Source: a virus
Length of the DNA: 47,006 bases
IMG/VR virus record: IMGVR_UViG_3300042876_000370
Location: 1 to 47,006 of that record
Direction: 5' to 3' (one strand)
Position numbers and translations under genes: made by a program. Below are positions 2,359-20,000 of this stretch, one piece after another; the first letter of the stretch is position 1, and each line of letters begins with the position of its first letter. Below the pieces are notes generated by a model. The model saw only the letters and a list, made by a program, of their open reading frames with translations, did not search any database and was not told the DNA's origin.

Positions 2359-2372
2359 TTAGTGGTAGGCGG

Positions 2373-2401: not shown

Positions 2402-2424
2402 TAATTGGACAATCGCAGTTGGTT

Positions 2425-2453: not shown

Positions 2454-2470
2454 AGGGAGGGGCTTTTGCC

Positions 2471-3445: not shown

Positions 3446-3456
3446 CGGAGGTATGA

Positions 3457-3654
3457 ATGAACCTGTTTAAATCAATCAAGGCGCTGTTCCAACGCCCAGT
3501 CGCTCAGCCAGTGACGTTTCACCCGAACTGCGATGAGTGCCAGCAATACCGGAGTTTGATCGCCTACTATGCGGATCTTGATTCGATCATCACCAATACC
3601 TACCGGAGGCACTTTAGCCAGCACATCAAAGAACAGCACGCGGCGGGTAAATAA
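3457..3654 (+). CDS. Small hypothetical protein (65 aa)
   Basis: ATG with ACGGAGGT about 6 bases upstream. The protein has a CDEC pair in NCDECQQYRSL and a His-rich C-terminus (RRHFSQHIKEQHAAGK), so metal binding is possible. It lies immediately upstream of the replication initiator, one base before its ATG. No family recognised. Confidence 0.6.
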   Translation: MNLFKSIKALFQRPVAQPVTFHPNCDECQQYRSLIAYYADLDSIITNTYRRHFSQHIKEQHAAGK

Positions 3655-3655
3655 A

Positions 3656-4874: not shown

Positions 4875-6331
4875 GCGCCTACTACAACGACATTGATCCT
4901 TACTGCTGCCAGGTGCTAAGGAAACAAATCAGGCTGGGTAACCTGCCGAAAGGTGACGTGGATGAGCGAGACATACGAACCGTTGGAGCCGATGAGCTGC
5001 GAGGATACGACCAGATCCATCTCTTTGCCGGAATCGGGGGCTTCCCGCTCGGGCTCAGGTGGGCCGGATTGCCCGACGACTTCAATATCATTACCGGAGG
5101 CTTCCCCTGCCAGCCCCATTCAACCGCCGGCAAGCGATTGGCAAGCGCCGATGAGCGGGATCTGTGGGGAGAGTATGCCCGCATTATTCACGAGCTTAGA
5201 CCCCGCTGGGTGCTGGCTGAAAATGTACGAGGGCTACTTTCTAGTGAGTCTGGACGGTTCTACGGTCGCGTTCTCCGGGACCTGGCCGGCTGCGGGTATC
5301 TGTGTGAATGGCAAATGCTACCGGCTTCGGCCTTTGGTGCGCCACACATCCGGGAAAGGGTATTCGTTGCTGGGTACACCCCAGTTCACGACCCCGACCG
5401 CCAGCGATGCCACCGGGACGACCGGCGGGGGGAACAGTCGCAGCCTGCGGGACGATGTGCGCATGTGGCCGACGATGACCGTATCCGATGCAACTGGCAA
5501 CCGGATGAGCAAGGGCAAGAAGAGGCCGAACGAGGGCGGACTACTGAAGGCGGTTACATTCCCAACCCCCAGGGCCAGCGATGGACAGAAGGGCAGCCCC
5601 AACCAGAAGGACAGCGACGGGAACCCCAGTCTGGCCAACATCGCAGCTCATTACCCGACGCCCTGCGCAACGGATTGGAAGAACCGGGAAACGTCCAATC
5701 AGGTGGGATTACAAAAAACGATTGGTGGGCAGTTGAACCCGGAATGGGTGGAGCTTCTAATGGGCTATCCGAAAGGTTGGACGGAGATAGATTGACAGAT
5801 GAAACGCGAAGCAGATCCAGAGAAATATTGCGAAACTTGCGAGAAAAGATTGACTCGGAAGACGTTCGAGAATGGGAGGCTGGAAGACCTGGGAGCATTC
5901 AAGCGCAGGAAATACTGCAGTCTTACTTGCGCAAACTCCAAGAAACACCCGAGCCATTGGACAACCTACCATTTGCGCGCGAAGAAGCACAAGAAAGATT
6001 TTTGCGAGGCTTGCGGGCAAAAGAAAAGCCTTCATGCCCACCACATAGATCAGAACCCGGAGAACAACGAATCGGAGAACATTCAAACTCTTTGCATCCA
6101 CTGCCATCACTTTTGGCACAAGACAGCGGAGAGATTGGGGAGGGCCATCGCGGGAAGAATGCCGAATTTATATCCCTGAATGCTTGGCGGCCTGGTTGGG
6201 AAGGCGATACTCCACGAGTTGCCAAAGGGGTACCCGCCCGGGTGGACCGACTTAGGGGACTCGGAAACGCCGTAGTTCCCCAGGTGGTGGAGTGGATTGG
6301 GAGAAGGATATTGGAGGCGGAGTATGTCTGA
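4871..6331 (+). CDS. C5-cytosine DNA methyltransferase, interrupted by an HNH gene within its frame
   Basis: GTG 4871 overlaps the upstream TGA. Motifs: I at residues 52-57 (FAGIGG), IV at 76-84 (GGFPCQPHS, catalytic Cys80), VI at 117-119 (ENV), VIII at 161-168 (RERVFVAG), and IX/X near 460-471 (RLRGLGNAVVPQ). The frame stays open for 486 codons although a complete HNH endonuclease gene occupies 5799-6179 in another frame; the HNH region adds about 128 residues with no methyltransferase character (residues 309-437). Just before it, EPGMGGASNGLSERLD looks like a second, diverged copy of the real C-terminal block TPRVAKGVPARVDRL. From about 5375 the codons in this frame become unlike the rest of the phage (many CGA, GGA, CAA, GAA), while the overlapping frame looks normal. 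The N-terminal catalytic part is convincing; whether the whole 486 aa is a working enzyme is open. Role: phage DNA methylation against host restriction. Confidence 0.75.
   Translation: MSAYYNDIDPYCCQVLRKQIRLGNLPKGDVDERDIRTVGADELRGYDQIHLFAGIGGFPLGLRWAGLPDDFNIITGGFPCQPHSTAGKRLASADERDLWGEYARIIHELRPRWVLAENVRGLLSSESGRFYGRVLRDLAGCGYLCEWQMLPASAFGAPHIRERVFVAGYTPVHDPDRQRCHRDDRRGEQSQPAGRCAHVADDDRIRCNWQPDEQGQEEAERGRTTEGGYIPNPQGQRWTEGQPQPEGQRREPQSGQHRSSLPDALRNGLEEPGNVQSGGITKNDWWAVEPGMGGASNGLSERLDGDRLTDETRSRSREILRNLREKIDSEDVREWEAGRPGSIQAQEILQSYLRKLQETPEPLDNLPFAREEAQERFLRGLRAKEKPSCPPHRSEPGEQRIGEHSNSLHPLPSLLAQDSGEIGEGHRGKNAEFISLNAWRPGWEGDTPRVAKGVPARVDRLRGLGNAVVPQVVEWIGRRILEAEYV
4962..5795 (+). CDS. Overlapping-frame protein nested in the C5 methyltransferase gene
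   Basis: A 277-aa ORF in the +1 frame of the methyltransferase begins at ATG 4962 (MSETYEPLEP), with only a weak AAAGGTG upstream. It contains repeated TPTASDATG, WPTMTVSDATG, FPTPRASDGQKG and YPTPCATDWKN blocks and ends LNPEWVELLMGYPKGWTEID. I recall this PTPTASD...LNPxWVEWLMGxPxGWT pattern as widespread, both as separate phage ORFs and as the C-terminal part of some actinophage C5 methyltransferases. Over roughly 5375-5795 its codons (AAG, GGC, AGC, GAC, CTG, AAC) match the rest of the genome better than the methyltransferase frame does. Its first half could be only a shadow of methyltransferase motifs, since SPASPIQPP is the +1 reading of the motif IV region. It may be a target-recognition or accessory subunit. 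Confidence 0.5.
   Translation: MSETYEPLEPMSCEDTTRSISLPESGASRSGSGGPDCPTTSISLPEASPASPIQPPASDWQAPMSGICGESMPALFTSLDPAGCWLKMYEGYFLVSLDGSTVAFSGTWPAAGICVNGKCYRLRPLVRHTSGKGYSLLGTPQFTTPTASDATGTTGGGNSRSLRDDVRMWPTMTVSDATGNRMSKGKKRPNEGGLLKAVTFPTPRASDGQKGSPNQKDSDGNPSLANIAAHYPTPCATDWKNRETSNQVGLQKTIGGQLNPEWVELLMGYPKGWTEID
5751..5790 (+). repeat. Left copy of a diverged 40-bp repeat flanking the HNH gene
   Basis: These 40 bases align without gaps to 6216-6255 with 13 mismatches by my count. In the overlapping frame the copies read ELLMGYPKGWTEI and ELPKGYPPGWTDL; in the methyltransferase frame both give the GxSNGLSERLD / RVAKGVPARVD block. The pair brackets the HNH gene. Confidence 0.6.
5799..6179 (+). CDS. 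HNH homing-type endonuclease
   Basis: A 126-aa protein with Cys pairs at 11/14 and 40/44, the block RRKYCSLTCANSKK, and an HNH core: CEACG at 69-73, HHID at 81-84, NN at 89-90, then LCIHCHHFWH at 98-107. This is the zinc-bound HNH type common in phage free-standing homing endonucleases. It starts three bases after the stop of the overlapping-frame ORF, in the same frame as it, and lies wholly inside the C5 methyltransferase reading frame. Codon use is more AT-rich than in the neighbours (AAA, GAA, AAT, TTT), consistent with a recent arrival. Its insertion close to the methyltransferase C-terminus, between two related 40-bp segments, suggests it is an intruder in a conserved site. Confidence 0.85.
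   Translation: MKREADPEKYCETCEKRLTRKTFENGRLEDLGAFKRRKYCSLTCANSKKHPSHWTTYHLRAKKHKKDFCEACGQKKSLHAHHIDQNPENNESENIQTLCIHCHHFWHKTAERLGRAIAGRMPNLYP
6216..6255 (+). repeat. Right copy of the diverged 40-bp repeat flanking the HNH gene
   Basis: Mate of 5751-5790, in the same reading frame relative to the overlapping ORF. This copy leads directly into methyltransferase motif IX/X (LRGLGNAVVPQ), so it is probably the original C-terminal segment, while the left copy belongs to the truncated overlapping ORF. Confidence 0.6.
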
Positions 6332-6647
6332 GCAAGACCTGGTGAAAGCAATCATCCATCTGCTGCAACTGTACGGCTGCTGGGCGATCCGGGTGAACAG
6401 TGGTAAGCGCCTGGCGGAGAACAAAGACGGTAGCAAGCGCCTGATCAACCTGGCGCCGGCGGGAACGCCTGATATTCTGGCCTGCTACCGGGGCCGGCTC
6501 ATCGCAATCGAGGTCAAACTTCCGGGGAATAAGCCCACGCAGATCCAGCTCGACGCGCATGCGCGCATCAAAGAGGCGGGCGGAATCGTGCTGATGGCTT
6601 ACGACGCGGATGAAGTTAACAAATTTTTGGGAGGGTTAGCAAAATGA
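6324..6647 (+). CDS. VRR-NUC domain nuclease
   Basis: The 107-aa protein starts at ATG 6324 behind GGAGGCGG and overlaps the methyltransferase end by 8 bases. It is a stand-alone VRR-NUC (PD-(D/E)XK) fold: N-terminal SEQDLVKAIIHLLQLYGC, then NLAPAGTPDILACYRG with the catalytic Asp, then IAIEVKLPGNKPTQIQLDAH with the E-x-K pair and the Gln-rich helix. Small VRR-NUC proteins occur widely in phage replication regions and are thought to be structure-specific or Holliday-junction-type nucleases. All key residues appear intact. Confidence 0.85.
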   Translation: MSEQDLVKAIIHLLQLYGCWAIRVNSGKRLAENKDGSKRLINLAPAGTPDILACYRGRLIAIEVKLPGNKPTQIQLDAHARIKEAGGIVLMAYDADEVNKFLGGLAK

Positions 6648-7378
6648 AGTCAGTGTATGTAGGCATCAAACGCTCGAATGAGCAAATTGCAGTCGCCGTT
6701 GATATTTCTGCCATTGCAGAAGATAAGACCGTCGGCGCGTTCTTGAAGCTGATGGCCGAAGCGGGACTCCTGGTAGACCGGGTGGACCGGGATGAGGTCA
6801 TCTTCGAAGAGCCCAAGATGGAGCCGAGCTACCTGAAGGACAACCAGCTCAAGATTGATTGGACCCAGGAGAGCGGCGGCGGGCCGAGCGATATGCCCGA
6901 GGGCTTTGTCTGCAATTTCTCGGGCGAGTGCCCGACTCCGGGGAAACCCTGCTCGAATTGCGAACACGCCGGCAGCATGATCCCGGCGGCGAAGGTTGTT
7001 GAACCGGACCCGGAGAAAGACGAATTTGAAACCTGCCCCGTTTGCAACGGCAGCGGCGTGAACGCACAGAACGCTGCGGAGTTTTGCGCCGAATGCAACG
7101 GCAGCGGCAGGGTGCGGAAGGCCGAAGCGCCGACCCTGGTCGATGAGCTCCTGGCCTCTCCGATGATGGAATGGACAGAGAACGAAGTCGGTGAGCCGAT
7201 TGAAGTGCCGGCTGAACTGTTGGCTGAAGGCGATCCCATGAATGACCCGGTGATAGATGGGAAGATCGAGGATGGCCCCACCGCCGAAGAGTTGGATAAG
7301 TGGGAGGATGCGACCTACGGGAGCGCGACCGAAAGCGAACCCGACGAGCACCAGGAAGCGGAAGAGCTACCGTTCTAA
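6644..7378 (+). CDS. Acidic zinc-finger protein with an SSB-like C-terminal tip
   Basis: The 244-aa protein starts with ATGA overlap. Residues 1-70 form a small mixed domain; residues 85-110 hold a Cys cluster (CNFSGECPTPGKPCSNC); residues 125-155 carry two DnaJ-type CxxCxGxG units (CPVCNGSG and CAECNGSG). The last 60 residues are strongly acidic and end EAEELPF, which resembles the DDDIPF tail of bacterial single-stranded DNA-binding proteins that recruits replication and repair enzymes. No OB-fold is evident. It sits between VRR-NUC and small zinc proteins in the replication operon, so a role at the replisome is possible. Confidence 0.6.
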   Translation: MKSVYVGIKRSNEQIAVAVDISAIAEDKTVGAFLKLMAEAGLLVDRVDRDEVIFEEPKMEPSYLKDNQLKIDWTQESGGGPSDMPEGFVCNFSGECPTPGKPCSNCEHAGSMIPAAKVVEPDPEKDEFETCPVCNGSGVNAQNAAEFCAECNGSGRVRKAEAPTLVDELLASPMMEWTENEVGEPIEVPAELLAEGDPMNDPVIDGKIEDGPTAEELDKWEDATYGSATESEPDEHQEAEELPF

Positions 7379-7379
7379 G

Positions 7380-7661
7380 ATGACGACGAAAGCGCCGGCT
7401 GATCTCAGCGCTTACATGCCCGCACCTGCGTGCTACTGGTGCTTTTACCTGGGCACGCAGGTGCGCAAGGGCAAGCCCATCGACCGCTGCGCGCGGGACT
7501 ACGCCGGCGAGATCGACGCGCTGCCGATCGTGAAGGATGCGGAAACTCACACCTGCGAGCGGTACATGGCCAGCCCGGTCGCCTATCAGGTGGCGCGCTG
7601 GGCCTGGGAAAAGGCGCGGGTGAAGCCGGTCCAGTTGGAATTGTTTGCAGGAGGGATATGA
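7380..7661 (+). CDS. Small Cys-containing protein ending in a clamp-binding-like motif
   Basis: ATG at 7380 lies one base after the upstream stop; the frame is open further upstream only as a shadow. The 93-aa protein has CYWC near residue 18, further Cys residues at DRCARDY and HTCERY, so four Cys could bind zinc. The C-terminus is PVQLELFAGGI, where QLELF fits the QLxLF consensus by which proteins bind the bacterial sliding clamp. It overlaps the next gene by ATGA. Confidence 0.6.
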   Translation: MTTKAPADLSAYMPAPACYWCFYLGTQVRKGKPIDRCARDYAGEIDALPIVKDAETHTCERYMASPVAYQVARWAWEKARVKPVQLELFAGGI

Positions 7662-7831
7662 AAACCGACACTATCACTATCAGAGTTACCGGAACAAAGA
7701 AGTTTCGCCAGAAAATCATCGACGTGATTTATGAGGCATTGATTGAAGACGAGGTGCAGTTCGAGGGAACAAAGCCGGGAAACGGTTTTGATTTGGACAG
7801 CACAATTGTGCCAAGCGAGGTGAAGGAATGA
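7658..7831 (+). CDS. Small hypothetical protein (57 aa)
   Basis: It begins with ATGA overlap behind GGAGGG and ends with a four-base overlap on the next gene. The start MKTDTITIRVTGTKKFRQK looks like a beta-strand plus basic helix; the C-terminus is acidic. Tight coupling supports translation. Function unknown. Confidence 0.55.
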   Translation: MKTDTITIRVTGTKKFRQKIIDVIYEALIEDEVQFEGTKPGNGFDLDSTIVPSEVKE

Positions 7832-8577
7832 GCGGCTTAAAACCCTGCCCTATGTGCGGAGGCGAAGCGCAGCTAGAGGATTATCGAGATGGCGGCGCGA
7901 TTGGCTTTGCTGTCCACTGTCAGAATTATGTTTGCCAAGTCGCAGGTCCAACCAGCCTGAAAGAGTTTGAGGCTGTCGAGCTGTGGAATAAGCGGCCGAT
8001 AGAAGGCGAGCTTCTTTCTAAATTTGAAAAGACCATGGCGAGACTAGACAAGGAGCTTCTACGCTCTTCGGCCTGCATGACTCTGGCGGAAGGATCGTAC
8101 AAGCCAGGAGAGATCACTCAGGATGATGACCGATGGTCTACAGCTTACAAGGCAGTGGAACGACTGGCAAAAGAGCGCGATGACCTACTCGACAAGCTGA
8201 TCCATCAGCAGGCATGGTCCGTTGATCAAAGCATTGAACTGTCCAATCTTCGGGGCGAGCTGCGCAAGTGGCAGACTGGCGAGATCGTGGGGATTGAATT
8301 TGTGCCGAAGATGGTTGACCAATTGGAAAAGGAACGTGATCAGGCTCGCGCCGAACTCGAAGCCGCCCGCCAGCGCATCGCGGAGTTGGAGGCGACTCTT
8401 CAAGCGGCAAACGAAGACGCCGAAGACCTTTACGCATTTGTCCAGCACGAGCCAGGATGCAGCACAAACGACAGATGTAAATGTGGGTTGGCCCATGCCG
8501 TTTATAAGCACGTCGAGAGAACCAACGTATCGCAGCAATCCCAGCCGGGCGAGAACAGCCTTCCTCAATCCGGTTGA
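7828..8577 (+). CDS. Lar-like zinc-finger protein with coiled coil
   Basis: Residues 1-55 match the restriction-alleviation (Lar) zinc-finger pattern: LKPCPMCGGEAQL, then HCQNYVCQVAGP, ending AVELWNKRP. The known Rac-prophage Lar protein reduces EcoKI restriction and enhances modification; many phage proteins share only the finger. Here it is joined to a coiled coil (about residues 105-200, rich in Glu, Arg, Leu and Gln: KERDQARAELEAARQRIAEL) and a second Cys cluster near the end (CSTNDRCKCG). The 249-aa length is well above that of Lar itself. Its neighbours are DNA-modification and nuclease genes, which fits an anti-restriction role. Confidence 0.6.
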   Translation: MSGLKPCPMCGGEAQLEDYRDGGAIGFAVHCQNYVCQVAGPTSLKEFEAVELWNKRPIEGELLSKFEKTMARLDKELLRSSACMTLAEGSYKPGEITQDDDRWSTAYKAVERLAKERDDLLDKLIHQQAWSVDQSIELSNLRGELRKWQTGEIVGIEFVPKMVDQLEKERDQARAELEAARQRIAELEATLQAANEDAEDLYAFVQHEPGCSTNDRCKCGLAHAVYKHVERTNVSQQSQPGENSLPQSG

Positions 8578-8634
8578 TTTGCATGCCATATCAAGGGGGT
8601 GAACGCGGCCCCCGCATCAGAAGGGCGAGACTCT

Positions 8635-8656
8635 GGCGGTCTCAGAGCAGACCGCC
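8635..8656 (+). other. Intergenic hairpin
   Basis: A perfect 8-bp inverted repeat (GGCGGTCT / AGACCGCC) with a 6-nt loop lies in the 101-bp gap before the PD-(D/E)XK gene. No T-run follows, and the AAGGAGG ribosome site comes 10 bases later, so it may affect translation or mRNA processing rather than end transcription. Confidence 0.4.
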
Positions 8657-8678
8657 GACCGTTTCAAGGAGGAACATC

Positions 8679-9143
8679 TTGCGACCCATGAGCATTGACG
8701 AGCTGGCGGAGATCGCCAGGCTTCGCACCAAGAGCCACCTGCAGCACGCCAGCCGGCGCCCGCTCTCTGCTGATTATGACCTGGTGGGGGTGGTGGGTGA
8801 GTACGAGTTTGCGCGTTTATTCGATCTGGACTGGGACTATAGCCAGAAGATCGGCGGGGATCAGGGGATTGATTTTGTGCTGCCCAGCGGGATTACCGTG
8901 GACGTGAAGACGTTTCGCAAGCCCTATAACTTGATCCAAGAGAAAGACAAGCTGCCGGCAGATGTGTATGTGCTGGCGGGGTACAACGATCAAACGCACA
9001 CGGCTGAGATATTGGGCTGGTCGTATAAAGAAGAGCTGATGTGGGCGCCGGTCAAAGATTTCGGCGCACATATCCCGCATCACACCATACCCAGGCACCT
9101 GCTGCGGAAGAATGACGAGTTGAATGTGAAGGGGAAATCATGA
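8679..9143 (+). CDS. PD-(D/E)XK nuclease-like protein
   Basis: TTG 8679 is chosen as start because AAGGAGG at 8666-8672 is 6 bases upstream; ATG 8688 is the alternative but sits 15 bases away. The 154-aa protein has a helix with Glu (VGEYEFARLF), then GGDQGIDFVLPSGITVDVKT, that is Asp, a short hairpin and D-x-K, the PD-(D/E)XK active-site arrangement, and ends with a strand-helix (EILGWSYKEELMWAP). Such phage proteins resemble small type II-like restriction enzymes or resolvase-like nucleases; the target is not predictable. Nearby methyltransferases would protect phage DNA if it is sequence-specific. Confidence 0.6.
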   Translation: MRPMSIDELAEIARLRTKSHLQHASRRPLSADYDLVGVVGEYEFARLFDLDWDYSQKIGGDQGIDFVLPSGITVDVKTFRKPYNLIQEKDKLPADVYVLAGYNDQTHTAEILGWSYKEELMWAPVKDFGAHIPHHTIPRHLLRKNDELNVKGKS

Positions 9144-9886
9144 AAGTGATCTCGTTAGGTTGGGGTGTGCAATCCTTCACGCTTGCCGCAATGGTGGCAC
9201 TGGGTGAATTGGAGCCGGTTGATTTTGCGATCCATGCCGACACTACACACGAAAGTTTATTGACTTACCAATTTGCGGAGCGATGGGCGGGCTGGCTTGA
9301 GGAGCGCGGGGTAAGGGTGATTACAGTCAAGAATACCGCCTCGGAATTAGGCGAGAAAGCCGTAGTCGATATTCCAGCGTTTACCCGATCCGAGAAAGGG
9401 GACGGTCAAATCCGCCGCCAATGTACAGGTGATTGGAAAATCGCGCAGATGCGTCGCTGGCTGCAAGCGAACCGAAACGGCGAACCCGTTGAAATGTGGC
9501 TAGGAATTTCCTGGGACGAGTCACAGCGCCAAAAAGCCAGCGACGTGAAATACGTTACCCACCGCTGGCCATTGCTTGACCTGAAAATGACCCGCGCCGG
9601 TTGTATCAAATGGCTGGAAACACACGGTCTGGAAGTACCACCCAAAAGCGCCTGCACCTTCTGCCCATTTCACAATACCGCCGAATGGCGGCGCATCCAG
9701 CGAACGCCCGAAGATTGGGCCGAGGCCGTGGCGGTTGATGAGGCGATCCGCAAAGCCCGCCCGCCTTACGACCTGTTTGTGCATCCATCCCGTAAGCCGC
9801 TGGTTGAAGTTGACTTGAGAACAGCCGAGGAAAAAGGGCAGTTGAGCTTGTGGGATGACGAGTGTTCTGGAATATGCGGAGTATAG
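9140..9886 (+). CDS. PAPS reductase-like ATP pyrophosphatase
   Basis: The 248-aa protein begins MKVISLGWGVQSFTLAAM, a PP-loop variant (SxGxxSxxL) of the N-type ATP pyrophosphatases. Further features: HADTTHES at about residue 32, RRQCTGDWKI near 94, CTFCPFHNTAEWRR near 172, and a C-terminal CSGIC. Phage members of this family are widespread and are not assimilatory sulfate enzymes; relatives adenylate substrates in sulfur transfer, including DndC in DNA phosphorothioation. No other Dnd gene is present. It ends QLSLWDDE, which resembles a sliding-clamp-binding motif. It lies between a nuclease and a DNA methyltransferase, which suggests a nucleic-acid modification role (inference). Confidence 0.7.
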   Translation: MKVISLGWGVQSFTLAAMVALGELEPVDFAIHADTTHESLLTYQFAERWAGWLEERGVRVITVKNTASELGEKAVVDIPAFTRSEKGDGQIRRQCTGDWKIAQMRRWLQANRNGEPVEMWLGISWDESQRQKASDVKYVTHRWPLLDLKMTRAGCIKWLETHGLEVPPKSACTFCPFHNTAEWRRIQRTPEDWAEAVAVDEAIRKARPPYDLFVHPSRKPLVEVDLRTAEEKGQLSLWDDECSGICGV

Positions 9887-9899
9887 AAAGGAGAATCGG

Positions 9900-10202
9900 A
9901 TGGGAAAGTTTAACGTGACTGCCAATCGGTCCAACCTCTTTCCCGAGTGGTGGGAAGAGAAGAAGAAAACAGTCGAAGCCCTGCCGCTGCGCATCCGGGC
10001 GATGCATGCGGCCCATGGGCTGCGGAGTGCGCAGAAGTGCAAGAACTGCGCGTTCTTCCAACGACACAGCCAGGCGGCGACCTGGTTTAAGTGTGCCAAG
10101 TCCAAGATAACCGGGGGATCGGCTACAGATTGGCGGGCAAACTGGCCGGCGTGCGGGAAGTTCAAGCCGCAAGAAACAGAGGAGACTCAGGGGAAACTAT
10201 GA
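9900..10202 (+). CDS. Small four-cysteine protein
   Basis: ATG 9900 follows AAAGGAGAA by a standard distance; the frame is open upstream only inside the preceding gene. The 100-aa protein has a basic N-terminus, LFPEWWEEKKK, and four Cys: CKNC then KCAKSK and PACGKF, a probable zinc site. Its stop overlaps the methyltransferase start (ATGA). Function unknown; coupling suggests a helper of the methyltransferase or an unrelated small phage protein. Confidence 0.6.
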   Translation: MGKFNVTANRSNLFPEWWEEKKKTVEALPLRIRAMHAAHGLRSAQKCKNCAFFQRHSQAATWFKCAKSKITGGSATDWRANWPACGKFKPQETEETQGKL

Positions 10203-11332
10203 TCCTCAACGCGAACGCTTTAGCTTTACCGCTGGCATCGAACAGCGTGCAGTGTGTGGTGACGAGCCCGCCCTACTGGGGGCTGCGTGATTATGGTGTG
10301 AAGGGCCAGCTCGGGACGGAACCCACACCGGATGAATATATCGTCAAGTTGGTAAGCGTGTTCAGAGAAGTGTGGCGGGTGCTGCGGGATGATGGTGTAT
10401 TGTGGCTCAACCTGGGCGACACGTATAGCGGTGGAGGCCGGGGCGGAAACGGGGACACAATCACCGGGAGAGGGAAAAACGCAAGCCAATGCTCTCATTA
10501 TGTGCCCGATAATCTCAAGGCCAAGAACTTGATAGGTATTCCCTGGCGGGTGGCGCTTGCGCTGCAGGCCGATGGCTGGTATTTGCGGTCTGATATTATT
10601 TGGCACAAACCCAACCCACTGCCCGAGAGTGTGGCAGATCGACCCACCAAGGCGCATGAGTATGTTTTTCTGCTGGCCAAACAAGAGCGCTACTTCTATG
10701 ATGCCGAGGCAATTAAAGAAATATCATCAGGCCAAACTGGGAGCGCCGTGAATTTCAAGCGCGCCTCCAAAGAGGATCTTTGCCCGGGCCAATCCCGCAC
10801 GCAGCACCGGGAAGAAAGAAGGGCAACGGAAGACTCCGGCTATCGCAACCGGCGCAGCGTGTGGACCATCCCCAGCCAGCCCACCAAAGAGGCGCACTTT
10901 GCGACCTACCCGGAGAAGCTGGTCGAACCCTGCATCCTGGCGGGCACGAGCGAAAAGGGTTGCTGCCCAAGATGTGGGCGGGCCTGGGTAAGGGTGGTAG
11001 AGAAGAACTTCATCCCCCAATCTGACATCAAGAACCCCGATAAGCTGCTGAGAAGCAGCGGCAAGGGAATGGACGAAACCAATGGATGGGCGGGGTTTCG
11101 GCGCGGGTCGGTAGATGCCAATACAACCGGCTGGCGCCCAGCCTGCACCTGCAACGCCGGCGATCCAATCCCTTGCCTGGTGCATGATCCCTTCTCAGGC
11201 TCAGGTACGACTGCGCGGGTAGCGATCCGCTTCAATCGGCGCTTTGTTGGGACGGAACTCAAATTCCAGTACATTAGCGAGATCAGCACGAAGCGGTTGA
11301 GCGAAGTACAGCGGGTCATCGAGGGTCTATGA
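10199..11332 (+). CDS. N4-cytosine/N6-adenine DNA methyltransferase
   Basis: The 377-aa protein starts at ATG 10199 (ATGA overlap). Catalytic motif IV is TSPPYWGLRDYG near residue 22, and the SAM-binding motif I, DPFSGSGTTARVAIRF, is near residue 333; this order (IV before I) is that of the beta class. SPPYW favours N4-cytosine or N6-adenine chemistry of the RsrI/PvuII type. Other typical blocks are WRVLRDDGVLWLNLGDTY, SDIIWHKPNPLPESV and KAHEYVFLLAK. A zinc-binding insert CCPRCGRAW with a second CTC near residue 318 is common in phage members. It gives the phage a second modification specificity beside the C5 enzyme, most likely to evade restriction. Confidence 0.9.
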   Translation: MILNANALALPLASNSVQCVVTSPPYWGLRDYGVKGQLGTEPTPDEYIVKLVSVFREVWRVLRDDGVLWLNLGDTYSGGGRGGNGDTITGRGKNASQCSHYVPDNLKAKNLIGIPWRVALALQADGWYLRSDIIWHKPNPLPESVADRPTKAHEYVFLLAKQERYFYDAEAIKEISSGQTGSAVNFKRASKEDLCPGQSRTQHREERRATEDSGYRNRRSVWTIPSQPTKEAHFATYPEKLVEPCILAGTSEKGCCPRCGRAWVRVVEKNFIPQSDIKNPDKLLRSSGKGMDETNGWAGFRRGSVDANTTGWRPACTCNAGDPIPCLVHDPFSGSGTTARVAIRFNRRFVGTELKFQYISEISTKRLSEVQRVIEGL

Positions 11333-11547
11333 GCGAGACCACCCCCGCACCAGCCTGGATTGATGACTGCCCTGGGTACTTGCAAGAGTTGCACAGTTAC
11401 CTCACCCAAGCGCAAATTATTCAGCTTAATGAACTGCTATCAGCAGCGAAGGCGAATGGGCGGGGCGTGGTGGCGCTGGCGATTTATGATGGGAAACCCC
11501 AGTATTGGACCCTGGAAGTAAAGTTCAGCGTGAGGAAGGATGGATAG
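11329..11547 (+). CDS. Small hypothetical protein (72 aa)
   Basis: ATGA overlap with the methyltransferase end. The protein starts MSETTPAPAWIDDCPGYLQ, has a helix (QIIQLNELLSAAKANGRG) and a beta-hairpin C-terminus (VALAIYDGKPQYWTLE). It is the last gene of the replication/modification operon, directly before the late promoter. Function unknown. Confidence 0.6.
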   Translation: MSETTPAPAWIDDCPGYLQELHSYLTQAQIIQLNELLSAAKANGRGVVALAIYDGKPQYWTLEVKFSVRKDG

Positions 11548-11548
11548 A

Positions 11549-11577
11549 TTGTAAAACCCCCGAGCCTGCGCTATACT
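11549..11577 (+). promoter_or_regulatory. Late promoter 1 (sigma70-like)
   Basis: TTGTAA at 11549-11554 and TATACT at 11572-11577 are separated by exactly 17 bases. The expected start of transcription, near 11584, is only about 14 bases before the terminator hairpin at 11598. The same promoter-terminator arrangement recurs at 32901-32986. Confidence 0.65.
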
Positions 11578-11597
11578 GGGGGTGTCTAAAAGGCCAA

Positions 11598-11633
11598 GGC
11601 CCGCGGCGATTCTGCCGTGGGCCATTTCGTTTT
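11598..11633 (+). terminator. Leader terminator 1, before the holin/terminase genes
   Basis: A 10-bp stem (GGCCCGCGGC / GCCGTGGGCC, one G-U pair) with a 6-nt loop is followed by ATTTCGTTTT. The flanks AAGGCCAAGGCCCG and GGGCCATTTCGTTT are shared with the terminator at 32953, while the stem interior differs with pairing preserved. That covariation supports a real RNA structure. Confidence 0.75.
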
Positions 11634-11653
11634 AACCCCATGGAGGTGGGAGC

Positions 11654-12043
11654 ATGAAACAAAGAAGTCTTTTTACGCTGTTGATTGTGCTGGTGCTGTT
11701 GTTCCTTCTGCCTGCTAGTGTGCAGGCGGCTGCCCGATTGCCTGCCCCCGAGGTGCAGGCCGCACCGATTGACCCGGGCGGCCTGGTCGCGTTCGGTGTG
11801 CCGGTGGTGGTCCTGGTCATTGGATTGGTGGAGTTCTGCAAGAAGCTGGGTGCATCGGGAAATGTGTGCCTGGTCTTATCCCTATTCTTCGGGATTTTGT
11901 TGATGCTGCTGGTACAGGTCTCGGAGGTCTACCCGATGATGGCGCCCTGGATCAAGGTGCTGATTTGGGGAGCGGTGGCGGGGCTGACAGCCCCGGGGCT
12001 GTTTGACCTGGCGAAGTCTTTCCGCCCAGCCAATCCTCAATAA
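11654..12043 (+). CDS. Holin-like membrane protein
   Basis: The 129-aa protein starts MKQRSLFTLLIVLVLLFLLP, a signal or first transmembrane helix ending at VQAAA, followed by three more hydrophobic segments (about 42-62, 72-92 and 97-120) and a short polar tail. RBS GGAGGTGGG precedes the ATG. First gene of the late operon, before another membrane protein and the terminase. Number of spans and size suit a phage holin, but no family motif is recognised, and the endolysin gene lies far away at 42071. Confidence 0.5.
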   Translation: MKQRSLFTLLIVLVLLFLLPASVQAAARLPAPEVQAAPIDPGGLVAFGVPVVVLVIGLVEFCKKLGASGNVCLVLSLFFGILLMLLVQVSEVYPMMAPWIKVLIWGAVAGLTAPGLFDLAKSFRPANPQ

Positions 12044-12046
12044 CCT

Positions 12047-12364
12047 ATGACTATCGCTATTGAACTCATCATAGCCTTGGTAACAGGCGGCATAGGGGTG
12101 ATCGTTTCAGCGATCGCCCTGATCCTGGGCAGGTATAACGTCAACGATCTGCGCGGGATTATTGCCGAATTGAAGGCGGATAATGTCGAGCGCAAGAAAC
12201 GAGAGGAAGCCTACGAGCGGCGCTGTGCTCGACAACTGGCCCGGATTGCCTACCTGACAGAGGGCATCCGCATCCTGATCCGCCAGCTTGATGCCGCCAA
12301 TATCAAACCCTGCTGGTCGCCTGAAGAATGGCACTCGGAAGACGCTGAGGAAGGCGAGACCTAG
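12047..12364 (+). CDS. Membrane protein with coiled coil (holin- or spanin-like)
   Basis: The 105-aa protein has one N-terminal transmembrane segment (residues 4-28, IELIIALVTGGIGVIVSAI) followed by a charged coiled coil (about 35-85, with many Arg, Glu and Lys) and an acidic tail. N-terminal anchor plus coiled coil is the architecture of inner-membrane spanins and of some class II/III holins or antiholins. Adjacent to the holin-like gene. Stop and next GTG overlap. Assignment is by topology only. Confidence 0.45.
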   Translation: MTIAIELIIALVTGGIGVIVSAIALILGRYNVNDLRGIIAELKADNVERKKREEAYERRCARQLARIAYLTEGIRILIRQLDAANIKPCWSPEEWHSEDAEEGET

Positions 12365-12915
12365 TGAACAACCGGCAGCGGGTTTTTATTGCTGAATATC
12401 TCAAGGACTTCAATGCCAGTCGTGCGGCTCGTGCGGCTGGCTATTCTGAAAGAACAGCCCGAAAGATAGGCTCTGAAAACCTCACAAAACCAGACATAAA
12501 AGCAGAGATTGACCGCCTGATTGCCGAGCGCACGATGGGGAAAGAGGAAATACTGCTGCGCTTGACTGACATTTCACGCGGCGATATGGCTGACCTGATG
12601 GACATTACCCCGACCGGGCACACGGTTGAGCTGATGAAGCGCGATGAGCAGGGCAACCTGGTCGTAAAACCTGAGACCAAGCTGATCCGCAAGATCAAGA
12701 CCAAAGTCACCACGATCATTTCAAAGCGAGCCGACGCCGATGATAAAGAAATTGTCGAGACAGAGCTGGAGTTGTACTCGGCACTGGATGGCCTGCAAAC
12801 CCTGGCGAAGATCAACGGGCTGGTGATTGATAAGGCCGAGATCAGCGGGCCCGAGGGTGGGGCCATTCCCTTAGAGATGTTTGAGAAGGCACTCAAGAAA
12901 GCTTATGGCGAATGA
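12364..12915 (+). CDS. terS: Terminase small subunit
   Basis: GTG start at 12364 (overlaps the upstream stop). The 183-aa protein matches the Terminase_2 family: NNRQRVFIAEYLKDFNASRAA, then AGYSERTARKIGSENLTKPDI, forming the helix-turn-helix DNA-binding domain, then IAERTMGKEEILLRLTDI and a C-terminal oligomerisation/beta region ending LEMFEKALKKAYGE. It recognises phage DNA and feeds the large subunit. It overlaps the large-subunit gene by 11 bases. Confidence 0.9.
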   Translation: MNNRQRVFIAEYLKDFNASRAARAAGYSERTARKIGSENLTKPDIKAEIDRLIAERTMGKEEILLRLTDISRGDMADLMDITPTGHTVELMKRDEQGNLVVKPETKLIRKIKTKVTTIISKRADADDKEIVETELELYSALDGLQTLAKINGLVIDKAEISGPEGGAIPLEMFEKALKKAYGE

Positions 12916-14293
12916 GTTAGATGCCTACATCAACGCAGCAAAAGAAGCCGGCTGTCCCATGGATCAGATCGGCAACTTTATATCGGCTGGGTATGTAGCT
13001 CTTCGCCCGATGCTGCACTTTCACGCAGCGGCCAGGCTGATCGGCCGGCGAACCCATGGCATCCGCGAGATCATGCTGGATGGCACCCGAGGCAGCGCGA
13101 AAAGTCATGCGGTCATCGCCCAGGTGGGGCTCGATGATTGTCAGGTGGTCGCAGGTCTCAAGTATTTGTTCCTGCGCCAAACCCAGCGGGCAGCCGGCGA
13201 ATCGTTTGAAGATCTGGTCGGCCGGGTGCTGCGCAACCAGAAGCACAAAGCCAACAGCCAGCGGGTGACGTTTGCGAATGGCAGCCGCATCTTGATTGGT
13301 GGGTACAAGAACGACAAAGACATTGATAAGTACCTGGGTATCGAGTACGACGGTCTGGTGATCGAGGAAGCCAGCCAGATCAGTGGGACCAAGCTCGAAA
13401 AACTCTTCGGCTCGGTGCGCACCAGCCGCGACAACTGGGTACCGCGCGTGTACTTGACCACCAACCCGGGCGGGATCGGCCATGGCTTTTGTAAGGCGCG
13501 CTACATCGAACCGCAGCGGCGAGGGCGCGAGACCTTTACCCGACGATTCTTCTCTTCCTACAAAGACAATCCGTTCATCAACCAGGAGTACCGGGCTTAC
13601 CTGGAAGGATTGAAAGGTGATCTCGCCAAGCAGTGGGCCGAGGGAGATTGGGATATTTTTGCGGGCATGGTATTCAGCGCCTGGCGGCACGAGACGCACG
13701 TCATCAAACCGTTTGAGATCCCGGCGCATTGGATCAGGCTGACCGGTACTGACTGGGGGAAAAGCAACCCGTTCTGCACGCTTTGGGCAGCCAAGAACCC
13801 GGACAATGGGCGCGTCGTGATCTACCGCGAAGTGTACGAGACCGAGCTGACCGACCCGAGACAGGCCGAGCTCATCAAGAGCATGGAAGACCCTGGCGAA
13901 AAGATCAGGAAACGCTACGCTGACCCGAGCATGTGGACCAAGCGCACTACTACCGACAATCCCACATCGACCGCCGACGTGTACCGCAGCCATGGGATCT
14001 ACCTGACGCCGGCTGTGAATGATCGCATCAACGGCAAGCGCAAAGTTGACACGCTGCTGCAACCTATGCCCGATGGCATGCCCGGGCTGCTGGTATTTGA
14101 AACCTGTGAAAACCTGATCCGCACCCTGCCAACGCTGGTCTATGACCCAACCAATACCGAAGACGTGAACACAGAAGGCGAAGACCATGCCTATGACAGT
14201 CTGCGCTATCTGCTCACGGATGACAAGCCGGCCAAACCACAGAACAAAGAACCCGAGCCGCCCAACCCCTGGCTCTCACTCAAGAGGATGTGA
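12905..14293 (+). CDS. terL: Terminase large subunit
   Basis: ATG 12905 lies within the end of terS; 462 aa. ATPase motifs: Walker A-like DGTRGSAKSH at residue 59-68 and Walker B in YDGLVIEEASQ near 152-162, with coupling motif YLTTNPGG near 186. Nuclease domain: TGTDWGKSNPF near 281, with catalytic Asp, and EDHAYDSLRYLL near the C-terminus. All expected acidic residues are present. It cuts and packages genome DNA into the prohead. Position before the portal gene fits. Confidence 0.93.
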   Translation: MANELDAYINAAKEAGCPMDQIGNFISAGYVALRPMLHFHAAARLIGRRTHGIREIMLDGTRGSAKSHAVIAQVGLDDCQVVAGLKYLFLRQTQRAAGESFEDLVGRVLRNQKHKANSQRVTFANGSRILIGGYKNDKDIDKYLGIEYDGLVIEEASQISGTKLEKLFGSVRTSRDNWVPRVYLTTNPGGIGHGFCKARYIEPQRRGRETFTRRFFSSYKDNPFINQEYRAYLEGLKGDLAKQWAEGDWDIFAGMVFSAWRHETHVIKPFEIPAHWIRLTGTDWGKSNPFCTLWAAKNPDNGRVVIYREVYETELTDPRQAELIKSMEDPGEKIRKRYADPSMWTKRTTTDNPTSTADVYRSHGIYLTPAVNDRINGKRKVDTLLQPMPDGMPGLLVFETCENLIRTLPTLVYDPTNTEDVNTEGEDHAYDSLRYLLTDDKPAKPQNKEPEPPNPWLSLKRM

Positions 14294-16047
14294 TGGAACA
14301 ATTTGAAGATTACCAACAATTAGCGAAGGATATGGAGGGCGCCAGCGACAAACGCCTGACTACCATGCAAGATATGGAAACGCTGTATGCCATGGATGGC
14401 GGAGACCTGCCGCAAAACAAAGACTGGATCAAACCAACCCGTTCGCCTGACCCCCATAACCAGATCACCAACGGCGCGCGCATGCTGAGTGTGGTTGATC
14501 CGCAGTTCTCGCTCCCGCACTCGGACCCGGATAACCAGGTCGATGCCGATGAAGTGCAGACCCTGGCGAACCGCGCGTTCCTGGGCTCATCCATGGCGAA
14601 GGGCAAGCCGCTGGCTTATTCCATGGCGCTGTCTGCCCTGCTGTATGGCGAGATCCACATGCGCTACCGGCTGGTGAGTGACCTGATTGCGATGGCGAAG
14701 ACGCCCGAACGGAAGCGCCGGCTGGAACGGATTGGCATGATGACCCCTGTTCTTTGGGACGTGCTGCCGCCCAAGACCTGCTATGCCATGACCGATGACA
14801 CCGGATTGGTGGCTCACTTGTGGAAGACAGAGCGGCGCGTGTCGCAGATCCGGGGGATCAATAAGACCTCAGAAACCCAGCTCGCAGCTCTCAAGCCAAC
14901 CGACCCGATTGTAGTCAATGATCTGGTGGACGAAACCAAGCGCTGCTTATGGGTGGAAGGGCAGGACACGCCCATTATCTTTGAAGACCTGGCGGATGGG
15001 CTGATGCCAGTCTCTTACATCGACGTGGATGGATCAGATTTGTTTGATGACCAGACCGTTGAGAAGATCCAACCGTTCTTGTATGCGGTGAATAAGAGCA
15101 AGCTGGCCGACCGGCAAAGCCTGGCCTGGACCATCTTCTTCAGCAACTTCTTTCAGATGGCGGCGACTACCCAGTTTGTGGCCTATCTGAATGACCCGGA
15201 CCGCAAGCTAGACATTGACCGGGCTTCACCGGGCGGCATCCTCAAGCTGATGATCGGAGAAAAGCTTGAGCAAACCATCACCAATATTTTCACGACCGAC
15301 CTGATGCAGGCGTTCAGCCTGACCGATACCAAGATTGAAGAGTCTACGATGTACCGTACCGCCAGCGGGCAGAACCCAGGCGCCGGCGCATCTTATTCAC
15401 TGGGCGCGCTGCTCAACCAGGCTGGGCGGCAGGCACTGGCAACCGCTGAGCGCATGTGCTCACACGTCGCGGGCAGCTCTATGACCAACGCCCTGCTTGC
15501 CTTGAAAGCGGCCGGCTCTGGAACGGTGAAACTGAGCAACCAGTCCAGCACCAAAGAGTTTGACCTGAACAAGATCCCGGATAACCTGATTGTGAACTGC
15601 ACCTTCAAGGCGAAGATGCCCTCTGATATGCGCGCCAATGCCGAGATTGCGGCCAAGCTGACCGAAGGGGAACACCCCATGGTCGATGTGGCCTGGGTAC
15701 GGGAAGCGCTGTTCGACCTGGGCGATTCTACTGCGGTAGATAAGCGCATCCTGGCCGAGCGATTTGGCTGGGCGCAGGCACAGGCGCAGCTACAACTTAA
15801 GGTCCAATCTTTGATGCAGCCCCAGGGCGCGCCGGGCATGCCACCCGGACAGCCCGGACAGCCCCCGCAACCCGGCGGGCAACCCACTCCCGAGCAGATG
15901 GCGCAGCTTCAGGCAGCCATGGCGCAAAGCCAAGGGCAAGGGCAGCCCATGCCCCAGGGCGCACAGCCTGGCTTACCCATGACTGAGCCCATGCCACCCG
16001 AGCAGATGCAAGGCGGAGGCCTGCCGCCTGAAATGATGGGAGGCTAA
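14293..16047 (+). CDS. Portal protein
   Basis: ATG 14293 overlaps the terL stop (TGATG); a GTG three bases upstream is the alternative. The 584-aa protein follows terL, as portals do, and has the look of one: mixed alpha/beta N-terminal half with DWIKPTRSPDPHNQI, a stem/wing region with TFFF-like aromatic helices, and a long C-terminal tail of about 65 residues rich in Gln, Pro, Met and Gly (GMPPGQPGQPPQPGGQP). The family cannot be named from motifs; the call rests on length, order and composition. The low-complexity tail is unusual and may contact the ejected giant protein. Confidence 0.7.
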   Translation: MEQFEDYQQLAKDMEGASDKRLTTMQDMETLYAMDGGDLPQNKDWIKPTRSPDPHNQITNGARMLSVVDPQFSLPHSDPDNQVDADEVQTLANRAFLGSSMAKGKPLAYSMALSALLYGEIHMRYRLVSDLIAMAKTPERKRRLERIGMMTPVLWDVLPPKTCYAMTDDTGLVAHLWKTERRVSQIRGINKTSETQLAALKPTDPIVVNDLVDETKRCLWVEGQDTPIIFEDLADGLMPVSYIDVDGSDLFDDQTVEKIQPFLYAVNKSKLADRQSLAWTIFFSNFFQMAATTQFVAYLNDPDRKLDIDRASPGGILKLMIGEKLEQTITNIFTTDLMQAFSLTDTKIEESTMYRTASGQNPGAGASYSLGALLNQAGRQALATAERMCSHVAGSSMTNALLALKAAGSGTVKLSNQSSTKEFDLNKIPDNLIVNCTFKAKMPSDMRANAEIAAKLTEGEHPMVDVAWVREALFDLGDSTAVDKRILAERFGWAQAQAQLQLKVQSLMQPQGAPGMPPGQPGQPPQPGGQPTPEQMAQLQAAMAQSQGQGQPMPQGAQPGLPMTEPMPPEQMQGGGLPPEMMGG

Positions 16048-16048
16048 C

Positions 16049-16327
16049 ATGCCACTGACCGCGCTGGACGTGGATGATGCCCTCAGCCTGGGCGATACTG
16101 CCGCCTCCGATATGCTCAAGGAAGCGGAGAAGGCCTATTACAAACCCTATGACGACGCGAAAAGGAAAGTCGCCTGGGCGGAGATCATGAAGAAGATCGG
16201 CTCAACCTACCCGCAGCTCGCCGGGCTGAGCGTGGCGCAAATCGAGAAAGCGCTGCGAGCGATGGATAACGCGAAGGTGGAGGAATTGAAAAAGCAGGTA
16301 GACCAGATGGAGGTAGCACATGGCTGA
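16049..16327 (+). CDS. Small helical virion-region protein (92 aa)
   Basis: The protein starts MPLTALDVDDALSLGDTAA and is predicted helical, with KAYYKPYDDAKRKVAWAEI and a C-terminal Glu/Lys-rich helix. It sits between the portal and the disordered Trp-rich protein, overlapping the latter by 8 bases. Possibly a chaperone or internal head protein; no family recognised. Confidence 0.6.
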   Translation: MPLTALDVDDALSLGDTAASDMLKEAEKAYYKPYDDAKRKVAWAEIMKKIGSTYPQLAGLSVAQIEKALRAMDNAKVEELKKQVDQMEVAHG

Positions 16328-17078
16328 TCGTAACGATGAGGGCGGGGTTGCAGCTCAGTCCAGTTCATGGAGCTGGCTCAACCAGCAGGCTGCGACCGTG
16401 ACGCCGCCGGCTTACAACCCCCCGCAGATCCCCAACAATTGGAGCTGGATGCAGCCAGGCGCCGAGCCGCCTGCGCCCCAGCAGCAGGAGACCCCTTACC
16501 AGGAAGTGACCACGCCCATAGCGCCGGCAGCCCAGCCAGCCCCCTCCTGGAACCTTACCCCGCGTATGTCCACCCTGGAAGAGATCCTCAAGCGCCAGGT
16601 CAACAGCGGCGGGATTGGTTATAACCCCATCCCCGTTACAAACGCCTGGGGGATGAGGAATAACGCGCCCAATGGACAAATCAATACCTGGGGACCGATT
16701 GACCCGAACGTCGCTCAACAGCAATCGAACGCCTGGGCAACGCCAAACCCAAACTTCTCTTACGGGAAGCCCGCAACCTTCCCGACGCCGGCCAACTACT
16801 GGCCAGCCTCAACCCAGGCGCCGACCAGTCCTTACGCTGGCCTGCGTGTTCCCCGCGGTATGAACCGCTGGCAGGAACCCGAGGCGGTCCAATACAACAG
16901 CTATATCCCCGGGCGCCTGCCCCCTCCGCCCAAGGCTGGCGGGGGTGCGGCCGGCGGCGGTTATGGTGTGAAGCCTCCCTCCGGTGGCGGCGGTGGGGGT
17001 GGCGGCGGTGGCGGTGGTTTTGGCGGCGGCGAGAGTGCTGCCCGGTGGTGGCTTCCCCCCAGTGTGTGGAGAATATAG
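16320..17078 (+). CDS. Disordered Trp/Pro/Gly-rich protein with poly-Gly tract
   Basis: The 252-aa protein is mostly low complexity. It has spaced short aromatic motifs (SSWSWLNQQ, NNWSWMQPG, APSWNLTP), Pro-rich linkers, and a C-terminal run of 12 Gly near residue 222-233 encoded by GGT/GGC/GGG repeats (about 16982-17031). It ends WWLPPSVWRI. Gene order places it directly before the giant polyvalent gene, whose ATG follows its stop immediately. It may be an internal virion or scaffold-like tether; no fold is recognisable. Confidence 0.6.
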   Translation: MADRNDEGGVAAQSSSWSWLNQQAATVTPPAYNPPQIPNNWSWMQPGAEPPAPQQQETPYQEVTTPIAPAAQPAPSWNLTPRMSTLEEILKRQVNSGGIGYNPIPVTNAWGMRNNAPNGQINTWGPIDPNVAQQQSNAWATPNPNFSYGKPATFPTPANYWPASTQAPTSPYAGLRVPRGMNRWQEPEAVQYNSYIPGRLPPPPKAGGGAAGGGYGVKPPSGGGGGGGGGGGGFGGGESAARWWLPPSVWRI

Positions 17079-20000
17079 ATGACTGACAATTCGCAGAGCA
17101 AGACGCCCATTCTTGACCAATATTACAAAGACCAGGCCGCGAAAGATGCGGCTGCTACTGGCGCGCCGGCAGTCTCGAACAACCCGAACCCGCTGGGGAT
17201 CTATGAACCCGGCCAGGATATGGGACCGCTGCGCTACAGTCCTGAAGAGCTGGACTACTGGCAGAAGGAATATGCCAAGACCGGGGAGAGCATTGACGCG
17301 AACTGGCTGGGCAACCAGCAGCAGCTCATCTATGACTACCACATGGCGCGGCCGGCGGACTCGTATTGGGAAGAGCCAAGCACCCTGGCGCGCTGGGCTT
17401 TGCTCGATCAGAACCTGCCCAAGGAAGCGGCCCGCCCGGTCTGGATGCAGTCTGATGTGTTGCAAGGGCTGTACAACTACCTGAGCGAACAGAACGGCAA
17501 CAAGCCGTGGTATGAGTGGGAGAAGCTCAAGACGACCGACCCGGTGCGGATCTTATTGCAGCGCATGCCGCTGCCTGATACCGGGGATATGCCCGACTGG
17601 GAGAAGAAGGCGCAATCCATTTACGGCAACCTGCCGCCTGACATTCTGAACGCCATCAGCAGCCTGCCCGACCCGCAGAAGTGGGGCGAGCAGCGCGCGC
17701 TGACCAGCGAGCAGACCGCCAAGATCCGCGAGATCAATAACTTTATCGAAAACCCCACGGTGGAGCAGGGCACAGACGCCAACGGCAACCCGATAGAGAT
17801 GGTCGCCGGCATCTCCAAGGCCGAGTGGGATGCGATGGACCTGGGCCAGAAGGCCGAATATATTGCCATGTCTCCCACGTCACCCTATGCGGCCCTTGTT
17901 CAGGCGCCGGCCATTGGGGTAGGGATGGGCGCGGTAGGCAGCGTGCTGGAAAGCGTAGGCCTCAAGGCGTTGTTCTCTCCGCAAGGTCTCAAGAATGTGA
18001 TTGCGGGTGGCGCTAAGGGCTTGATCCCCGGGGTTGCGTTTGGGATTGCGATGACCGCGGCCCAGCAGTACCGGCCTATGGAAGCGCTGGGAGCGGACCC
18101 GGCTGGCGTCCAGGCGAAGGGCTGGTTTAAAGACCTGTTGACCTCCATGGGTTTCCGGGTGGCGCCAGATGCATCCTGGGAAGATGCGGCCATGGAACTG
18201 CTCAACCTGCCCATGAATGAGATCCAGAAGCAAATCGGCTGGGGTGTGATGAACGCTGCGGACCTCGGGAAGATGCTGCGCGGTGAAGCCCCGGACACGG
18301 CGACCTTTGAAAAGATGGTCGCGCCCGAAGACCGGGACACGCCCGAGAAATTCAAGCAGCAGTACGAGCTGTGGAAGAACGCGCGGCTCGAAGCATCGCG
18401 CGCCTTCTACCAGACCGACCCGTTCAAAAACCTGACGGCGCGCGGTGTCGAAGTGCGCCAGCCCGGCAGCAAGGAAGTAACCCAATGGTCGCCGGCCGAT
18501 CCTAATTCATCCGTGTCTGAGTACGTGCTGGATCAGATTGCGATTGACATTTATCACAAGCTGAACGCCGGCGAACCCCTGGCGCCGACTGAGCTGGCCT
18601 ATCAGCCCATCCTGCAAACCCTGTTTGGGGTGGGCGGGCAGACCTCCAACCTGATCGCCCAGGTGGTATTAGACCCGTCCGACTTGATCCCCAAAGGCAT
18701 CAGTATTGTCTCTTCGGAGGCGAGCAATATTGCGACCAGCGTGATCGCCGGCAAGACCCCGAACGCCAAGCTGTCGGCTGCCATGCTGGAAGCCAAGGGA
18801 CCATACAGCGGACTGAAGCAATACCAGGCTGATCTCAAGCGCACGCCCGTGAATGAAATCCTGGATAACTACGGCTGGTTTGAGCGCACCTTAGCCGGGA
18901 TCGATGAGACCGGGCAGCGGAAAGACCTGAACACCGTTCAGAAGGGGAATGCAATCAGCCAATTCTTCGGCAAGCTGGCCGGGCTGACCCCGGAAAGCCG
19001 CGTCTTCGAGGTGGTGCATACCACCTATAACAGCGTGCTCAATATGCTGGACAATTTCCGGCGCGACACCGGCGCCGACCCTGAGCAGATGGTGCAATTT
19101 ATTGATCGTATTTCGGCCCCGACGCCCGAGGCCGCGATTCGGATGGCGGCGCAGGCGGAGACCATTACGGTGCCTATGAAGGTAGGGGGAGAAACGGTTT
19201 CAACTCCCCTGCCCCGCCAGTTCGCAAGCCCCGAGCTGCAGCCGGCCTTGATTGCGCTCAAGGACCAGGAAGTAAAAGTCCACGACCTGCTGAGTGAATG
19301 GCGCAGCGCGGAACCGGCCCGGGATCTGGTACGGCGCGCGGCGGCTGCTTTGGAAATGGACGAGCACCAGGTCATGGCAACGATGCTGAAGGGTGGCACC
19401 GAGGCGCGCAGCCTGATCGACCTGGCGACCAAGAAGGGCATGGCGGACGCGGCCGGATTGGAAGGGGCGGCGAAAATCTTCTATGATCCCACCAACAAGG
19501 CCAGGAAGACCGCCTTTTCTTCTGAAGACTTCCAGGCGGATCTCTCGATCTTACTGGCAGAAGGCGCCGAGAAGTGGGCCATTGGTCACTTTGGGGTGAA
19601 GGAAATGGGCTGGATGAACAAGCTCAACAACCTGATGAAGAACGCGCAGGGGTTGGTGCTGTTCGACTATAACCCGGCCTATGCCCTGAACAATGGCATC
19701 AATAACCTTGTCACTCTGGCATGGGATGGGCTCTTAGGCAGCTTCCGAGGCCCAACCTACAGCCGGCTGCTGGAGCGCTTTGGCCGACCCAGCTTTACCG
19801 AATCAGGCTTGACCCCGGCTGAATATGGCACCGGGCAGGCCGAGGCGGGCCTGGGTGGGCGCAAGGGCAGGGCGCAGAGCATCGGCGAAGAGGTGCGCAA
19901 AACCCGCTGGGGGACTGGCCGCATCGCCGATGCTAATGAGTTCGTGGGTGGCGTGCGCGGCAAGCTGGGTTTATTCAATCGGCTCTCGGGCTGGATGGAG

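Follow-up and report, generated by a model that had tools for sequence, protein, structure and literature searches.

Both late units of the phage studied here open with a promoter that is followed directly by a terminator hairpin, and we consider it reasonably probable that the two cassettes form a terminator-gated late switch acting on both units, with antitermination at the level of the leader RNA in relatives and read-through that would depend on a factor. The window, that is, the whole stretch of DNA analyzed, is the 47,006-base virus record IMGVR_UViG_3300042876_000370. It belongs to a temperate tailed phage, with genes for an integrase (42848-43840, minus strand), a repressor-like HTH protein (44514-45041, minus strand), terminase, major capsid protein and endolysin; annotation was performed by comparing 30 window proteins with PHROGs. 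Late unit 1, on the plus strand, starts with cassette 1, followed by the holin gene (11654-12043; PHROG 1299, E=3e-9), the small and large terminase subunits (12364-14293), the portal gene and, as its last gene, a giant ORF of 5271 aa (17079-32894). Late unit 2, also on the plus strand, starts with cassette 2, followed by a scaffold-like ORF and the major capsid gene (together 32999-34714; capsid match to PHROG 212, E=9e-38). We infer the scaffold identity of the ORF before the capsid gene from its position.

The ends of the window overlap, in that positions 1-300 and 46697-46996 are 96% identical and form an imperfect terminal repeat. Record G001, which is near-identical, runs across the joined ends with matching spacing, and the genome is therefore circular or permuted and ~46.7 kb in size. 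A tRNA gene (43902-43975) adjoins the integrase gene and is a likely attachment site. The HTH gene is adjoined by a strong early promoter, TTGACA-17-TATAGT (44977-45022), and the palindrome CGTGCAGTTGCACG at the start site of this promoter is probably a repressor operator. The early region holds a PAPS-reductase-like gene (9140-9886) and two DNA methyltransferase genes (4871-6331 and 10091-11332). Two domains were recognised in the 5271-aa ORF, a strawberry-notch type helicase (AAA_34 and Helicase_C_4) and a GGDEF domain whose RTGGDEF motif is intact; its product is probably a virion or injected protein with several domains.

Cassette 1 (11549-11633) is placed between the stop codon of a 72-aa ORF, which it follows directly, and the holin gene, and cassette 2 (32901-32987) starts 7 nt past the stop codon of the giant ORF, before the scaffold-like ORF. 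Their promoters on the plus strand, TTGTAA-17-TATACT (11549-11577) and TTGACT-17-TAAACT (32901-32929), each match the consensus at 9 of 12 positions; cassette 2 has an alternative -10 element, TATAAA, with a 15-bp spacer. In both cassettes a GC-rich hairpin follows ~15 nt past the start site, which we placed at ~11584 and ~32936 from the -10 elements. Stem-loop 1 (11598-11623, plus strand; arms GGCCCGCGGC/GCCGTGGGCC) has 11 pairs including one G-U, a 4-nt loop and a predicted fold of -22.6 kcal/mol, and is followed by the T-rich tail ATTTCGTTTT (11624-11633, plus strand). Stem-loop 2 (32953-32977, plus strand; arms GGCCCGAAGC/GCTTCGGGCC; -20.7 kcal/mol) is followed by ATTTCGTTTA (32978-32987, plus strand). 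The T-tails of both window hairpins are interrupted (ATTTCGTTT). Both leaders carry the motif AAGGCCAAGGCCCG on the plus strand (11590-11603 and 32945-32958), and AAGGCCAAGGCCCG and GGGCCATTTCGTTT have exact matches in the window at the two cassettes only. The 17-bp promoter spacing, the hairpin ~15 nt after the start and the exact shared flanks of the preliminary description were thus seen at both sites.

Promoter matches alone were no better than chance, with 7 found and 7.0 expected in positions 1-17000. Joint pairs, defined as a promoter with at least 9/12 matches and a strong hairpin with a T-rich tail within 45 nt, numbered two in the window (both strands) and zero in each of 20 dinucleotide shuffles, which bears out the claim that promoter-then-terminator cassettes open both late units. 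The inner stems of the two hairpins differ yet pair, as had been described; the further claim of covariation is weak for the window, because it comes from two sequences only.

Relatives were gathered with three queries, TerL, capsid and the C-terminal part of the giant ORF, and form a clade with a common gene order of lysis/terminase, portal, giant ORF, scaffold and capsid. A separate attempt to find close relatives of the capsid gene by itself confirmed none, and none of the 190 stretches from the TerL alignment against bacterial genomes was confirmed. In two relatives the terminase large subunit has a single in-frame stop (G037:C1:18696-20090, TAG; G041:C1:13886-15283, TGA), the frames being otherwise open. 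The preliminary description had named loss of the shared flanks from homologues as evidence against its reading, and on this point its expectation failed: in IMG/VR the exact flanks occur in one record, the near-identical G001, where cassette 1 is unchanged and cassette 2 is not in the record. What relatives keep instead of the flanks is the architecture and the likeness of the twins within a genome.

G006, whose TerL is 49% identical, has promoter-leader-terminator cassettes with other sequences at both late places. Cassettes at both late positions were also seen in G032, G043, G069, G058, G038, G037, G070, G074 and G076, and in G053, G066, G078, G083, G060 and G022, giving 17 records including the window in a manual tally. 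Four of these (G037, G070, G074 and G076) come from the automatic scan and have weaker promoters or leaders that are little alike; the capsid-side copy of G022 has no promoter at the threshold used. G053 has a third cassette of like kind before another late gene (L262:7640-7830). We scanned 69 distinct regions directly past a giant ORF match, with five near-duplicates dropped and regions below 700 bases omitted. A promoter with a leader terminator was found in 17 of the 69, versus 0-1 per shuffle set (1,0,0,0,0,0,0,0,0,0 in ten sets). In the other 52 regions the scan detected no leader hairpin before the capsid unit; by eye, G005, G007, L134, L137, L139, L149 and L158 have a promoter at the capsid place without one. 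The scan allows at most one stem mismatch and no internal loops and therefore misses some cassettes, such as the promoter and interrupted hairpin seen by eye before the scaffold gene of Podoviridae sp. ctptF532 (MW202608.1). The long stems of relatives run straight into tails such as TTTTTTGTT. Virus Rctr41k, in which one leader matched at the DNA level, was set aside; its annotated genes do not include a giant ORF, and the match is probably a shared repeat.

We compared the identity of the cassettes within and between genomes, using ten twin pairs placed by hand. The stem region was 0.600 identical within versus 0.308 between genomes (0/20000), and the 24 nt before the stem 0.467 versus 0.271 (p=5e-5). 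The -10 element differed less (0.917 versus 0.854, p=0.019), and the -35 element plus spacer was no more alike within than between genomes (0.370 versus 0.353, p=0.32); in the window, this region is 22% identical over 23 nt. This shows that the likeness between twins sits in the transcribed part, i.e. the leader and terminator, and not in the promoter interior.

In the leaders of relatives, an element of the form xxCCG-ACAG...C(G)GGxx lies upstream of the terminator, and its last part is the terminator's own 5' arm. It was found in 16 records (manual tally). A scan for a CGxCAG core together with a strong T-tailed hairpin, in which complementarity was not required, returned 25 distinct cases, 21 of which pair fully (4/4) with their own arm. 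When the arm assignments were permuted 20000 times, with the arm position re-optimised each time, 6.5 cases paired on average and never more than 14; the four non-pairing cases (L155, L201, L371, L378) look like chance. We then aligned the 21 cases with three others picked out by eye (24 in all, 23 of them distinct). All 23 distinct sequences retain the five inner pairs, 11/23 retain the outermost, and one pair occurs in four types (CG 9, AU 6, UA 6, GC 2). Covariation was 0.420 versus 0.154 in shuffled alignments (0/500), and the signal was destroyed by sliding the alignment. The element is present twice in one leader of G077 and three times in G053; the first of the G077 tandem (L343:13600-13686) is an extended hairpin with no T-tailed terminator of its own visible.

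In folded examples the terminators reach about -20 to -30 kcal/mol versus -3 to -5 for the antiterminator. Since the terminator is predicted to be far more stable, termination would win by default and a stabilising factor would be needed. Rfam gave no match in 16 cassette-bearing loci and, at gathering score, only the tRNA in the window; the element of the relatives looks like a RAT-type antiterminator/terminator switch that is absent from Rfam. The CGACAG pattern had 4 matches in bacterial genomes, none with a terminator hairpin, and 15 in IMG/VR, 8 of them in real cassettes (four judged by record names).

A covariance model of this element (R1) had no match at 11.6 or 32.9 kb; its best match in the window, at 13.7 bits and E 0.46, lies outside the cassettes. 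In both window leaders GGC(CAAG)GCC can fold and overlaps the 5' arm of the terminator, and this hairpin is a candidate antiterminator. Some folds also showed an outer antiterminator helix involving the 5' end of the RNA; it was discarded, as it was no better than in shuffled leaders (shuffle fractions 1.0 and 0.28 for the two window leaders). Given the R1 miss and an outer helix not above shuffles, an antiterminator in the window is only a suggestion.

The 72-aa ORF directly before cassette 1 (11329-11547, plus strand) belongs to a small DUF2292-like family of ~75 aa whose members are located near lysis-side cassettes. An HMM from which the window ORF had been left out, and some of whose seeds came from cassette-bearing genomes, matched that ORF at E=0.0023, with the next non-members at 0.7. 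The lower E-values of later HMM iterations are not independent because the window ORF was included; the best reversed ORF against such an HMM had E 0.12. Three of 21 aligned members weakly match DUF2292 (PF10055; best E=0.00025), and the window ORF itself had no match in Pfam. In the open-access library searched, DUF2292 came up in two papers, both on unrelated subjects. The predicted window protein has a helix-helix-strand-strand order (model pLDDT 79, pTM 0.57), and in a fold search with the model all matches had E-values of at least 0.27 (viral) or 1.6 (PDB).

Across 47 automatically scanned regions, cassette and protein occurred together in 15, the cassette alone in 7, the protein alone in 6 and neither in 19 (Fisher p=0.003, a test that ignores shared ancestry and counts both near-identical G000 and G001). 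Among the protein-only regions, pattern matching does place lysis-side elements in G053 and G078, and capsid-side cassettes are present in G018 and G023. The small protein is absent from G006 and G083, both of which carry cassettes. Two other searches for a factor were abandoned: families unique to cassette-bearing phages by BLAST consisted largely of virion proteins, lysozymes, XRE repressors and recombinases, with no clean antiterminator, and a second small protein family was present in only 4 records. We tentatively infer that the 72-aa protein is the best candidate for a late antiterminator.

A terminator directly after a promoter implies conditional read-through, as the preliminary description had argued, and the recurrence of the cassettes and the antiterminator-like leader element in 16 records agree with it. 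From the observed architecture, recurrence, twin likeness and covariation we reconstruct termination, read-through and a factor as follows. Transcription of each late unit would start at its host-type promoter and meet an intrinsic terminator ~40 nt after initiation, so that by default both units would give only short leaders. In the presence of a factor made or induced by the phage, polymerase would pass both terminators and the late genes would be expressed together. In relatives, the antiterminator hairpin may take the terminator 5' arm as its 3' strand, which would place the switch there most likely at the RNA level, and a protein may stabilise this hairpin by a RAT-like logic; in the window, the 72-aa DUF2292-like protein is the candidate factor. 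A wider proposal strikes us as rather doubtful, namely that twin RNA attenuators, pitting antiterminator against leader terminator, govern both late units throughout a large clade of uncultured giant-ORF phages, that a new family of ~75-aa DUF2292-like antiterminators, whose genes lie beside the first cassette, binds and reads these RNAs, and that element and arms co-evolve fast while the twins are kept alike in each genome.

Processive antitermination of the Q/AlpA type, in which a protein loads at a promoter DNA element and polymerase then ignores the leader and later terminators, appears unlikely to us. In its favor, cassette 1 lies before a lysis gene and the 72-aa ORF sits in what we take to be the place of Q in lambda. 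The AlpA anatomy is also close: according to PMC7969949, AlpA of Pseudomonas aeruginosa recognises DNA between -35 and -10, ignores terminator identity and controls lysis genes through two operons with intrinsic terminators that begin 54 and 26 nt downstream of the start sites, and here, too, two units each have a terminator near the start. However, unlike the AlpA case, the spacer is not common to the twins (22% over 23 nt in the window; p=0.32 over ten pairs), and the part that is alike is the leader and terminator. Moreover, the scan of 30 window proteins turned up no antitermination family and recognised none of them as Q- or N-like, as had been noted before, and covariation of the leader with the terminator arm is unexpected for a terminator-blind factor.

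Two further readings do without a switch. If the hairpins were ordinary terminators that end the upstream unit (the early genes or the giant ORF) and lie past the next promoter by chance, the position of cassette 2, 7 nt past the giant ORF stop, and of cassette 1, directly past an early-gene ORF, would be explained. This seems improbable, because a hairpin 3' of a promoter would stop that promoter's transcripts too, the promoter-hairpin order recurs far above shuffles, and the twin leaders are alike. We find it highly improbable that they are 5'-UTR hairpins stabilising or processing late mRNA (RNase III-like or protective) with no termination, since the long stems of relatives abut runs such as TTTTTTGTT and a covarying element competes with their 5' arm, although the place of the hairpins at the late mRNA 5' end, shortly before the ribosome site, and the interrupted T-tails of the window would fit.

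Among known systems, lambdoid Q acts at one late promoter followed by a terminator directly before the lysis genes, with a DNA-loaded factor, the Q family protein. Cassette 1 resembles it in its promoter-terminator order before a lysis gene; unlike lambdoid phages, this phage has two late promoters, and a DNA-loaded factor or Q family protein is not among the findings. Q21 and lambda Q are mentioned in PMC11150451 and PMC7969949. The put RNA of HK022 (PMC9378689) consists of twin RNA elements, carried by the transcripts of two phage operons, a likeness to the present twins. The put RNA works on polymerase by itself in early operons and has no complementarity to a terminator arm, whereas the element of our relatives is complementary to the terminator arm. 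In LicT/BglG-SacY RAT and ANTAR systems, according to PMC3369936, a hairpin upstream in the RNA takes up the 5' strand of the terminator, is mutually exclusive with the terminator and is stabilised by a protein. Such a pattern of competing hairpins appears in the 16 other records; in the window only an inner hairpin is seen, with the outer helix not above shuffles. The RAT/ANTAR systems of PMC3369936 control sugar, nitrogen and similar catabolic operons, and here the units are phage late units with a different sequence element. The PHROGs scan of 30 window proteins brought up neither a CAT nor an ANTAR protein. Because an AlpA-type spacer is not common to the twins and the LicT/ANTAR logic matches the element, we classify the cassettes as a terminator-gated late switch that is most likely RNA-based.

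We found no report of twin late attenuators of this kind in the open-access library searched. To our knowledge, detailed accounts of late-gene switches exist for few phages, most of them lambda-like, and the present family is known almost only from metagenomes. If the proposed switch is true, these phages would have an RNA-based solution to late-gene timing, through a terminator-gated twin-site switch with a covarying element, and the element together with the small protein would offer a handle for testing the function of DUF2292-like proteins.
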